From positions 866 through 21,545 of the IMG/VR virus record IMGVR_UViG_3300030101_000470: DNA of 20,680 nucleotides; one strand, given 5' to 3'. Source of the stretch: a virus. Positions 1 through 11,631 of this stretch are shown piece by piece. Position numbers and translations under genes: made by a program. Positions within the stretch are counted from its first letter, which is position 1. Every line of letters begins with the position of its first letter. The notes beneath the pieces are model-generated. The model saw nothing but the letters and a program-made list of their open reading frames with translations. It searched no databases and was not told the origin of the DNA.

Positions 1-18
1 ACCGAAACTTCTACAGGG

Positions 19-47
19 TTGACAAATCTAAATTTGCGAGGTATAAA
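19..47 (+). promoter_or_regulatory. Sigma70-type promoter P1
   Basis: A perfect TTGACA (19-24) is followed after exactly 17 bases by TATAAA (42-47), which is a near-consensus bacterial housekeeping promoter. Transcription would start around base 53-55, about ten bases before the start codon of the ArfA-like gene at 65. This is seen directly in the sequence; that host RNA polymerase uses it is inference. Confidence 0.7.
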
Positions 48-64
48 TATACAGAGAAACCAAA

Positions 65-205
65 ATGGTTTTTAAATTAAATAAGATTAACCCTATAGCT
101 AGATTACTTGCTTATACAAGAAAGAGAAAACAAATCGTACCACCCAAAAAGGGTAAAGGTTCATACAACAGAAAGAACAAACATAAACGAGTTGACAATT
201 CTTAA
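65..205 (+). CDS. arfA: ArfA-like alternative ribosome-rescue factor (46 aa)
   Basis: A 46-residue, very basic protein (ATG 65, TAA 203-205) carrying KKGKGSYNRKNKH at residues 28-40. This is almost identical to the KKGKGSYxRKxKH signature of ArfA as I recall the E. coli protein. Residues 9-40 align with E. coli ArfA without gaps, including N9, I11, L14, L15 and R21, with about half the positions identical. Known for the family: ArfA inserts its basic tail into the empty mRNA channel of a ribosome stalled on a stop-less mRNA and recruits release factor 2. The phage copy ends soon after the motif and lacks the hydrophobic C-terminal tail that makes full-length E. coli ArfA unstable, so it resembles the active truncated form. 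It lies directly behind promoter P1, preceded by a weak ribosome site (AGAG about 10 bases upstream). The next promoter's -35 box overlaps its last codons. Function is inferred from the motif. Confidence 0.82.
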   Translation: MVFKLNKINPIARLLAYTRKRKQIVPPKKGKGSYNRKNKHKRVDNS

Positions 206-220
206 TATACCTTATATAAG
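192..220 (+). promoter_or_regulatory. Sigma70-type promoter P2 of the early block
   Basis: TTGACA (192-197) and TATAAG (215-220) are separated by exactly 17 bases. The -35 box overlaps the end of the ArfA-like gene. Transcription would start near base 227, so the palindrome at 240-254 falls in the first transcribed bases, a position where a bound protein could block elongation or where an RNA hairpin would form in the leader. Confidence 0.7.
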
Positions 221-239
221 CAAGTATCACTTAACCAAA

Positions 240-254
240 GTCCCAACTTGGGAC
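240..254. repeat. 15-bp palindrome copy 1, operator-like
   Basis: GTCCCAACTTGGGAC is a perfect inverted repeat of 7-bp arms around a single central base. It lies between promoter P2 and the ribosome site (AAGGAG, 267-272) of the gene starting at 278. The same element recurs at 2290-2304 (central base inverted) and 10210-10224. Position suggests an operator. A 6-bp stem with a 3-base loop would also be possible in RNA or single-stranded DNA. Confidence 0.75.
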
Positions 255-277: not shown

Positions 278-1132
278 ATGCCATTAGATTCATACACACC
301 AAACCTCTACACACTAGAGGGTACAGACCTAGACTTCAAAGTGAAGTACGAGGACACTAAGTTTGCAGGTAAACGATACGTAAGAAACTCTGTTACAGGA
401 GAATACATAGGTATCGTGGGAGATAAGTTCTCAACTGTAAATCACGTAAACTTCTTCAATGGTATCAAGAAAGTTATACAGGATAACAGACACCCTGTTG
501 ACCTTGATGGTGCAAAGGTAAAGATAAAGACAGGGAGAAACAATGCCTTTGTATTCTTAGACATTACGTTACCAAACGTGAAGCATACGATCACAACATC
601 TAAGCATCAAACAGTAATCAACGAAAGGATTATTGCTCTGCATGGTATAGATGGTTTAACATCCAACCAAGTATATTTCGGTGCTATTGATAGCTACTGT
701 TCCAATGGACAAGTTGGTGGAGAGTTTGACCTCATCAAGATGAAGAACACAAGTGGCTTCACTATGGGCAGACTGATTGCAGAAGTTAAGTTAGCCAAGA
801 GTAACTTTGATCTTCGTTGTGAGATGATGCAGAAGTGGGCAAACATACCCCTTAACATAGATGGTAAAGACTTCTTAGGTAAGCTAATCAAGTCAGAGAC
901 TATGGCTAAGAAGATGTACGAGTTAGCTTGTCAAGAAATATCTAGACGAGGTAAGAATGTTTACGCTCTGTATTCTGCCTTCACTAATTACGCATCATAT
1001 GCAGATGAGAGGAATGGCTTCAACATACGTAACACAGGCTTTGATACAAAAGCAGAGACTATGTGGAAGAGAGAACAAGAAGTCGCAAAGTGGATTTCTT
1101 CACCTCAATTCAAGTCATTATTGGTAGCATAA
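278..1132 (+). CDS. DUF932-like phage protein
   Basis: A 284-residue protein. The start at 278 is supported by AAGGAG five bases upstream. It resembles the DUF932 / phage-plasmid-like family in length and in a central stretch with a conserved-looking Cys-Ser-Asn-Gly (CSNGQ at about 141-145), followed by a C-terminal helical part ending in a Trp-containing amphipathic segment. No catalytic motif is recognised. The biochemical role of DUF932 is unknown; such genes often sit in phage and plasmid early regions. It is the first long gene after promoter P2 and the palindrome, so it is probably among the earliest and most strongly expressed. Its stop overlaps the next start (TAATG). Family assignment is by memory of the pattern, not by search. 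Confidence 0.55.
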   Translation: MPLDSYTPNLYTLEGTDLDFKVKYEDTKFAGKRYVRNSVTGEYIGIVGDKFSTVNHVNFFNGIKKVIQDNRHPVDLDGAKVKIKTGRNNAFVFLDITLPNVKHTITTSKHQTVINERIIALHGIDGLTSNQVYFGAIDSYCSNGQVGGEFDLIKMKNTSGFTMGRLIAEVKLAKSNFDLRCEMMQKWANIPLNIDGKDFLGKLIKSETMAKKMYELACQEISRRGKNVYALYSAFTNYASYADERNGFNIRNTGFDTKAETMWKREQEVAKWISSPQFKSLLVA

Positions 1133-9702: not shown

Positions 9703-11631
9703 ATGCAAAATTATTTACCGACAGATTATCAAAATTTTATTGCTCTCTCTAGATATGCTAGATGGAAAGAAGACAAGCAAAGAAGAGAGACATGGATTGA
9801 AACTGTAGACAGATACTTTGACTACATGAGTGACCATCTTAAAAAGAATCATAACTATACGATTACAAAAGCATTACAGGAGAAGTTGTCAAATGCTATC
9901 ATGTCTTTAGGTATTATGCCTAGCATGAGAGCGTTGATGACATCAGGTGTAGCTTTAGATAGATGTCATGTAGCAGGTTACAACTGCAGTTACATACCTG
10001 TGGATAGTCCACGTAGCTTTGATGAATGTATGTACATTCTTATGTGTGGTACAGGTGTTGGCTTCTCTGTTGAACGAGAGAATGTTGACAAGTTACCTGT
10101 AGTAAATGAACACTTTGAGAATAGCACTACAACAATTAAAGTAGATGATAGCAGACAAGGTTGGGCAAGAGCCTTACGAGAGCTTATAGCTATGTTGTAT
10201 GTAGGACAAGTCCCAACTTGGGACACTTCACAGATTAGACCTGCAGGTGCGAGACTAAAAACCTTTGGTGGTAGAGCATCAGGTCCTGCTCCTTTGGAAG
10301 AGCTATTTCAATTTTGTATTGAAAAGTTTACAGGAGCAAAAGGCAGAAGACTATTTCCTATTGAGTGTCATGATCTCATGTGCAAGATAGGAGAAGTTGT
10401 AGTTGTTGGTGGTGTTAGACGTTCTGCTCTTATCTCTTTGTCTAACTTAGGCGATGACCAAATGAGACACGCTAAGTCAGGTCAATGGTGGGAGAATGAA
10501 GGTCAAAGAGCACTTGCCAACAACTCTGTCGCATTTAAAGGTAAGCCTGAGATGGGTACATTTATGCGAGAGTGGACTGCTTTGTATGAATCAAAGTCAG
10601 GTGAACGTGGTATATTTAACAGACAATCTGCTAAAGTAAAAGCAGCAGAGAATGGTAGACGTGAAACTGATTATGAGTTTGGGTGTAATCCATGTAGTGA
10701 GATTATACTTAGACCATATCAGTTTTGTAATCTTACAGAGGTTGTCTGTAGAGAAACAGATGACATAGAAAAACTAAAAGAAAAAGTTAGACTGTCTACT
10801 ATTCTTGGTACATTTCAATCTACACTTACTAAATTTAAGTATCTTAGAAAAGTGTGGAAAGAGAACACAGAAGACGAAAGATTATTAGGTGTATCATTAA
10901 CAGGTATACTTGATTGTCCTGTTCTATCTCCTGATAATAGTAATCTTAAATTTAATTTACAGTTACTCAAAGAGGTTGCAGTAGAAACTAACAAGAAGAT
11001 TTCTAAAGATCTAGGCATACCACAGTCAACTGCTATAACATGCATCAAACCTAGTGGTACAGTTAGTCAATTAGTTGACAGTGCATCAGGCATACATGCA
11101 AGACACAATCCTTTTTACATTAGAACTGTACGTGGAGATAACAAAGACCCACTAACACAGTTTATGAAAGAGAGTGGTATTCCTGCAGAACCTGATGTTA
11201 TGAAGCCTGATAGCACAACTGTGTTTAGCTTTCCTATGAAATCACCATCAGGTGCTATCACTAGAACTGAGATGACTGCAATAGAACAGTTAGATTATTG
11301 GTTGTTGTTCCAAAGATATTGGTGTGAGCATAAACCATCTGTAACTATATCTGTAAAAGAACATGAGTGGATGAGAGTTGGCTCATGGGTGTATGATAAC
11401 TTTGATGAGGTATCAGGTATATCCTTTTTACCTTTCAGTGAGCATACATACAAACAAGCTCCTTATCAAGACATAGATGAAGAAGAATATGAGAAGTTGA
11501 CAGCGATCATGCCAACTGCTATAGATTGGAGTAAGTTACAAGATTACGAGAAAGAAGATACTACAAGTGGAAGCAAAGAACTTGCTTGTACTGCAGGTGC
11601 TTGTGAGATCGTAGACATAGAAGCAAAGTAA
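9703..11631 (+). CDS. nrdJ: Class II (B12-dependent) ribonucleotide reductase, monomeric type
   Basis: A 642-residue adenosylcobalamin-dependent ribonucleoside-triphosphate reductase that would convert NTPs to dNTPs for phage replication. The catalytic loop FGCNPCSEIIL gives N329, C331 (thiyl radical) and E333. The active-site disulfide pair is C95 (YNCSYIP) and C342 (FCNLTEVV). The C-terminal redox shuttle is C629-TAGA-C634, the same spacing as C731/C736 of the Lactobacillus leichmannii enzyme. At 642 residues it is about 100 shorter than that 739-residue monomer. No separate small subunit is needed or seen. The host must supply cobalamin. Codons 170-174 (VPTWD) carry palindrome copy 3. MazG lies downstream and DUF3310 upstream, forming a nucleotide-metabolism neighbourhood. 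Confidence 0.95.
   Translation: MQNYLPTDYQNFIALSRYARWKEDKQRRETWIETVDRYFDYMSDHLKKNHNYTITKALQEKLSNAIMSLGIMPSMRALMTSGVALDRCHVAGYNCSYIPVDSPRSFDECMYILMCGTGVGFSVERENVDKLPVVNEHFENSTTTIKVDDSRQGWARALRELIAMLYVGQVPTWDTSQIRPAGARLKTFGGRASGPAPLEELFQFCIEKFTGAKGRRLFPIECHDLMCKIGEVVVVGGVRRSALISLSNLGDDQMRHAKSGQWWENEGQRALANNSVAFKGKPEMGTFMREWTALYESKSGERGIFNRQSAKVKAAENGRRETDYEFGCNPCSEIILRPYQFCNLTEVVCRETDDIEKLKEKVRLSTILGTFQSTLTKFKYLRKVWKENTEDERLLGVSLTGILDCPVLSPDNSNLKFNLQLLKEVAVETNKKISKDLGIPQSTAITCIKPSGTVSQLVDSASGIHARHNPFYIRTVRGDNKDPLTQFMKESGIPAEPDVMKPDSTTVFSFPMKSPSGAITRTEMTAIEQLDYWLLFQRYWCEHKPSVTISVKEHEWMRVGSWVYDNFDEVSGISFLPFSEHTYKQAPYQDIDEEEYEKLTAIMPTAIDWSKLQDYEKEDTTSGSKELACTAGACEIVDIEAK
10210..10224. repeat. 15-bp palindrome copy 3, inside nrdJ
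   Basis: GTCCCAACTTGGGAC, identical and in the same orientation as copy 1. It starts at the first base of codon 170 of the reductase (encoding VPTWD, a conserved stretch of the enzyme) and so is read in another phase from copy 2. In an AT-rich genome the choice of GTC and GAC codons here suggests selection for the DNA word. Confidence 0.75.

Follow-up and report, generated by a model that had tools for sequence, protein, structure and literature searches.

A 46-residue ArfA-family protein encoded by a phage and short ArfA-like genes on SAR11 chromosomes

Organization of the locus

The analyzed stretch of DNA, further referred to as the window, comprises 20,680 nt (positions 866–21,545 of the IMG/VR record IMGVR_UViG_3300030101_000470) with a G+C content of 36%. 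The DNA polymerase encoded in the window shares 64% identity with its counterpart in Puniceispirillum phage HMO-2011 and 57–62% with those of the Roseobacter phages CRP-1, CRP-345, CRP-603, and CRP-2, and by this comparison the phage is classified as HMO-2011-like. Megablast found no match to the window among phages. The beginning of the window contains the following features:

3..80, plus strand: 3′ end of the upstream gene, overlapping arfA by 16 nt; it encodes the C-terminus of a gene that has a 162-aa version before the scaffold gap
19..47, plus strand: supposed promoter TTGACA-17-TATAAA (hexamers at 19–24 and 42–47), located inside the upstream coding sequence in codons for VDKSKFARYK
65..205, plus strand: mini-arfA, with an ATG start, 46 codons (MVFKLNKINPIARLLAYTRKRKQIVPPKKGKGSYNRKNKHKRVDNS), and a TAA stop; assigned by PF03889 score, phmmer matches to ArfA chains, and purifying selection in relatives
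192..220, plus strand: promoter-like element TTGACA-17-TATAAG, by position belonging to the next gene; its −35 box lies in codons for the C-terminal Val-Asp of mini-ArfA
240..254, plus strand: palindrome GTCCCAACTTGGGAC in the interval from arfA to the following gene; either terminator-like or an operator
278..1132, plus strand: DUF932-like gene (DUF932 match just below the cut-off), the constant downstream neighbor of the slot that holds arfA

Assignment of the ORF to the ArfA family

An earlier note, made from the letters of this DNA, had described the 46-aa ORF as a miniature ArfA ribosome-rescue factor that aligns without gaps to the E. coli protein, lacks the hydrophobic tail, and ends at a normal stop codon. 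All of these elements were recovered: the product finishes at residue 46 followed by an ordinary TAA, and the profile search that the note had suggested as a check gave a PF03889 match (E-value 5.2e-6) that passes the gathering score by a thin margin (26.3 vs. 25.5 bits). This match aligns ORF residues 21–41 with profile positions 24–44, resting mainly on the basic half, and is the only PF03889 match in the whole 21,545-base record. In a phmmer search, residues 7–42 aligned without gaps to ArfA chains of ribosome structures (E-values 0.005–0.009), and the convincing matches among solved structures were ArfA chains only. The half that corresponds to the mRNA-channel part of ArfA (KKGKGSY-RK-KH) is conserved, with KGKGS and the accompanying basic residues forming the segment KKGKGSYNRKNKH (residues 28–40). 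Matches among PHROGs were confined to families without known function (phrog_37108, E-value 0.0015, in which an annotated Enterococcus phage ORF reads KPKKGKGSYKRKPKHKG); no NCBIfam profile matched the 46-aa product, and the GGQ catalytic motif of ArfB (YaeJ) is absent from it.

Compared with E. coli ArfA (YhdL, PF03889), which is encoded as 72 aa, mini-ArfA shares the KKGKGSY-RK-KH half but has an N-terminus shorter by about 5 residues, a Lys in the ungapped position of Phe25, no hydrophobic tail, and a normal stop codon. ArfA proteins of γ- and β-Proteobacteria typically combine a C-terminal hydrophobic tail with control through non-stop mRNA, whereas mini-ArfA has neither the tail nor a terminator within the ORF. 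A terminator scan revealed no terminator or hairpin inside the arfA ORF of the kind present in E. coli arfA, and folding of the ORF as a whole gave z = −0.23; the 3′ part folds somewhat better than shuffled sequences (z = −2.53). C-terminally truncated E. coli ArfA is fully active, and only 46–48 residues are visible in the structures (PMC8012679). The tail and the non-stop control were not taken as defining ArfA, since they are regulatory and not needed for activity.

The ORF is under purifying selection. In the group of window-like phages the median dN/dS is 0.22, two-thirds of the differences (66%) fall at third codon positions, and the variable columns of a 28-codon core number 7, 7, and 27 of 28 at the first, second, and third codon positions, respectively. 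All members of a diverse phage set (12/12) match PF03889. Because the ORF also recurs upstream of the same neighbor gene in about 18 viral contigs, it did not arise by chance and is a real gene of the ArfA family.

Upstream context

The edge of the window is an assembly gap. The record extends upstream past a 10-N scaffold gap (L002, positions 856–865), and the window begins at record position 866. The 162-aa version of the upstream gene has a weak Pyr_excise match below the cut-off and corresponds to PHROG 624 ("DNA binding protein"). Since arfA overlaps the end of this gene by 16 nt, it is probably translated from the mRNA of the upstream gene, perhaps by translational coupling.

The view that arfA is the first gene after a consensus promoter had to be abandoned: apart from the gap at the window edge, the two hexamers occupy codons of the upstream gene, and their −10-like part differs between relatives (TATAAA, TACAAG, TACAAC, or TATAAT). 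The whole 19..47 segment is missing where the upstream gene differs, and promoter-like sites are not more common than in shuffled sequences. A promoter directly before arfA was thus rejected on the position of the hexamers and the lack of conservation of the −10-like part.

In the scaffold record, the 10-N gap joins two versions of one locus, with and without arfA (L002, positions 640–865). The piece before the gap was considered as an arfA-less variant of the same phage and then set aside, because its junction occurs in no other viral contig; it may be an assembly artefact.

Downstream elements and the small-gene slot

A sequence of the type TTGAC-N18/19-TA[TC]A was observed upstream of the DUF932-like gene in 19 of the 20 relatives checked, both with and without arfA, and the −35 box of the corresponding 192..220 element could account for the conservation of Val-Asp close to the C-terminus of mini-ArfA. 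In the palindrome at 240..254, both arms vary together among the relatives compared. The sequence GTCCCAA[C/G]TTGGGAC occurs three times in the window (positions 240–254, 2290–2304, and 10210–10224), with two of the copies within coding sequences for primase and ribonucleotide reductase; the repeated palindrome might be bound by a phage protein.

With the DUF932-like gene as an anchor, 80 relatives were collected from viral contigs, 74 of them with upstream sequence. A motif check identified an ArfA ORF upstream of the DUF932-like gene in 18 of these 74, whereas the other relatives examined carry unrelated small genes in the slot or have the upstream gene followed directly by the DUF932 gene (e.g., L036). 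The position of arfA is therefore a slot with gene turnover, and arfA, being absent from it in most of the relatives examined, is an accessory gene.

ArfA-like genes in other phages

Relatives of mini-ArfA are encoded in at least 249 stretches of viral contigs; since KGKGS was itself the motif scanned for, its invariance in these loci is in part a product of the selection. Among 13 phage isolates searched as whole genomes, which comprised relatives found by polymerase or DUF932 searches and records with ArfA matches, ten have an ArfA-like ORF (E-values up to 0.1). The isolate versions range from the full KGKGSY (CRP-212) and KGRGSF (HTVC027P) to another basic tail that leans weakly to DUF7230 (HMO-2011, CRP-345, and CRP-2).

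Phage-borne ArfA has already been reported, and the window ORF is a variant of it. Thus, gp30 of Pelagibacter phage HTVC027P was described as ArfA and shows high transcription at 3 h and 12–15 h in SAR11 cells infected by the phage (PMC12753301), g10 of Citromicrobium phage RXM was likewise reported as ArfA (PMC8953757), and the record of Ochrobactrum phage phiOC carries its own ArfA note. Both gp30 and g10 resemble mini-ArfA in being small, phage-borne PF03889 proteins with marine alphaproteobacterial hosts, but they retain an aromatic residue at the Phe25 position (in PKY and PAF) and belong to other phage types with other gene neighbors. The suggestion that such genes are missed by length filters holds in part: annotation misses or obscures the relatives in CRP-212, CRP-9, and Cr30, whereas those of HTVC027P, RXM, and phiOC are annotated. 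In Roseobacter phages CRP-212 and CRP-9, a coding sequence annotated in another frame covers the ArfA-like ORF (L004, 1489–1614, and L005, 1504–1629, respectively), and that of Caulobacter phage Cr30 is unannotated (L007, 953–1105).

Chromosomal mini-ArfA genes in SAR11

The larger result of this analysis lies outside the window and concerns the chromosomes of SAR11 bacteria. A scan of bacterial genomes with the phage alignment returned SAR11 for 78 of the best 80 loci, ranked by likeness to the query and hence not a survey. A PF03889 match was found in 100 of 148 SAR11 (Pelagibacterales) genomes (G001–G152), and a profile built from SAR11 sequences divided the same 148 genomes into 100 with strong, 5 with weak, and 43 with no matches. 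The SAR11 proteins are mostly 34–43 aa long and end at normal stops (loci L168–L246). Their genes follow a Trans_reg_C gene in 66 of 78 loci and face a pfkB kinase gene in 71 of 78. The start is usually no more than ~20 nt from where the regulator gene ends, and the two genes often overlap; 60% of the differences between the SAR11 sequences fall at third codon positions. The SAR11 proteins share with the phage protein the N-P-I-A start, the KPKKGKGS[FY]-R segment, the normal stop, and the location near or overlapping the end of the preceding gene. They differ from it in always having Tyr or Phe at the Phe25 position, and in being chromosomal and usually placed between the Trans_reg_C and pfkB genes. 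The contrast drawn earlier between the phage protein and bacterial ArfA consequently does not extend to SAR11, where chromosomal mini-ArfAs are likewise short and end at normal stops.

No match to the ArfB model NF006718 exceeded the cut-off in the 148 SAR11 genomes. The weak matches listed cover about positions 9–42 of 140 and lie nearly all in ~350-aa frames, as matches to RF1/RF2 would. Alphaproteobacterial tmRNA was found in 92 of 98 SAR11 genomes. SAR11 mini-ArfA is probably a standing backup beside tmRNA in bacteria without detectable ArfB.

A published survey covering over 15,000 genomes detected no arfA in any of the 2,376 Alphaproteobacteria it included (PMC11633108). In a limited literature search, ArfA, SAR11, and the ribosome appeared together only in the phage study cited above (PMC12753301), a search that does not make priority certain. 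Among 386 sampled Alphaproteobacteria, PF03889 was found in 10 genomes, 3 of which are SAR11 genomes of the first sample. The genomes of the other seven (L260–L266; G226, G257, G268, G299, G363, G415, and G465) are too big for SAR11, and some of their proteins have a Phe25-type aromatic residue.

Release factor contact and proposed mechanism

E. coli ArfA occupies the vacant mRNA channel with its basic C-terminal part and contacts RF2 at Trp319, Val198, and Phe217 through a patch formed by Leu19, Leu24, and Phe25 (PMC5378476). The claimed good match of the phage product to this RF2-recruiting part proved to be weak, as identity there is low and Phe25 aligns to Lys20. In the ungapped alignment Leu14 and Leu15 correspond to E. 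coli Leu19 and Leu20, and Tyr17 reaches the place of Phe25 only with a gap. The Phe25 position is aromatic in none of 68 distinct window-like phage sequences, a set ranked by likeness to the window that speaks for this group only; it is occupied by Arg, Lys, Pro, Thr, Ser, or Ala, with Tyr or Leu being the most common residue three positions before it. By contrast, all 76 distinct SAR11 mini-ArfAs have Tyr or Phe at this position, and Val198, Phe217, and Trp319 are all kept in the one SAR11 RF2 considered, which together fit RF2 recruitment in SAR11. Replacement of Ala18 by Thr inactivates E. coli ArfA; the equivalent position is mostly Arg or Lys in the window-like phage subgroup.

We consider the ORF to be probably a minimal ArfA that would promote stop-codon-independent peptide release through host RF2 on ribosomes with an empty mRNA channel. 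According to this proposal, when a ribosome has come off the end of a broken mRNA, the basic C-terminal half would enter its empty channel. The short N-terminal half would then help host RF2 to assume its open conformation and to release the peptide from the tRNA in the P site, and the ribosome would be freed without a stop codon. Considering the normal stop, the absence of a tail and of an in-gene terminator, and the overlap with the upstream gene, mini-ArfA would probably be synthesized in the way usual for proteins of the early phage region, and its production would not be limited to a failure of trans-translation. Its putative role may plausibly be the recycling of ribosomes from nuclease-broken mRNA or the relief of tmRNA.

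The absence of an aromatic residue at the Phe25 position throughout the window group weakens the RF2 match and leaves room for recruitment of the type seen in Francisella ArfT; for this reason rescue with RF2 is rated only somewhat above even, and rescue with altered recruitment as unlikely. Under the latter explanation, the protein would still rescue ribosomes, engaging release factors differently from E. coli ArfA, as does ArfT, which also lacks a Phe25 equivalent and works with either RF1 or RF2 (PMC6299226). Resemblance to ArfT extends to size (~40 aa), the basic C-terminal stretch, and the apparent absence of ArfA-type non-stop control (PMC6299226). Nonetheless, ArfT, described as independently evolved, does not contain the exact KGKGSY motif, which in mini-ArfA is complete and of the ArfA type; a gapped alignment can place Tyr17 at Phe25, and most single-cysteine changes leave E. 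coli ArfA active (PMC4245945), so that the RF2 patch may be tolerant. A further comparison is provided by BrfA. Its two N-terminal helices contact H69 and H71 of 23S rRNA. The helices span residues 4–17 and 21–25 (PMC6881298), whereas mini-ArfA has only 8 residues before the NPIA segment, few for such helices.

The same divergence could be read as the mark of a decoy that plugs the empty mRNA channel, recruits RF2 poorly, and blocks tmRNA-SmpB tagging or host ArfA, for example sparing nascent phage proteins. The fully kept mRNA-channel half beside a diverged RF2-facing half in the window phage group agrees with this idea, with the reservation that KGKGS invariance comes in part from the search motif. 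We regard it as improbable, given that blocked rescue would trap ribosomes at a cost to the phage, that purifying selection also covers the N-terminal half (conserved NPIA-R...A-Y), and that the phage relatives HTVC027P, CRP-212, and RXM retain the aromatic residue. Less probable still is a short basic peptide that is ArfA-like by composition and has another function or none: small size, basic character, and the thin margin over the Pfam cut-off would suit it, but the exact motif and spacing, the ArfA chains as best PDB matches, the approximately 18 orthologs under purifying selection, and the bimodal SAR11 matches (100 strong, 5 weak, 43 none) all argue against it.

Implications and relation to DUF7230

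Most of the sampled SAR11 genomes carry a tiny ArfA-like gene, and SAR11 bacteria rank among the most numerous in the ocean. If SAR11 mini-ArfA works, the accepted distribution of ribosome rescue systems needs to be revised, the smallest active ArfA becomes definable from nature, and non-stop control is not required for ArfA. The phage copies, if functional, would show that phages invest in free ribosomes during infection. Since natural versions exist with and without the RF2 anchor, RF2 dependence is directly testable. As a tentative scenario, which we hold to be possible but on balance doubtful in its entirety, SAR11 may have swapped ArfB for a minimal constitutive ArfA as a backup of tmRNA, while marine phages may have acquired this protein and given rise to diverse forms of it, among them some without the Phe25 anchor that would recruit release factors otherwise, with DUF7230 contributing further members in other Alphaproteobacteria and phages.

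DUF7230 (PF23876), a family of unknown function, may be an unrecognized arm of the ArfA group, a suggestion offered as a lead only and prompted by its NPVAK-LR start, which resembles that of mini-ArfA (L331, L329, L332, and L335–L338). Its proteins have a DKTKYSRK-like tail instead of KGKGSY, and the DUF7230 profile (cut-off 27 bits) gave no match to the window ORF at E-values up to 10. DUF7230 was also considered as a substitute in the SAR11 genomes that lack ArfA and was rejected, with only 1 of 148 genomes matched. An example of a DUF7230 protein from other Alphaproteobacteria is RRNPVAKKLRTKRYRPKVVADKTKYSRKKKHK, and one SAR11 ORF (MKRNPIAKALRTPKFKKKVIKDKKKYNRKKVKKYF, genome G015) gives a match to DUF7230 as well as to the SAR11 ArfA profile.
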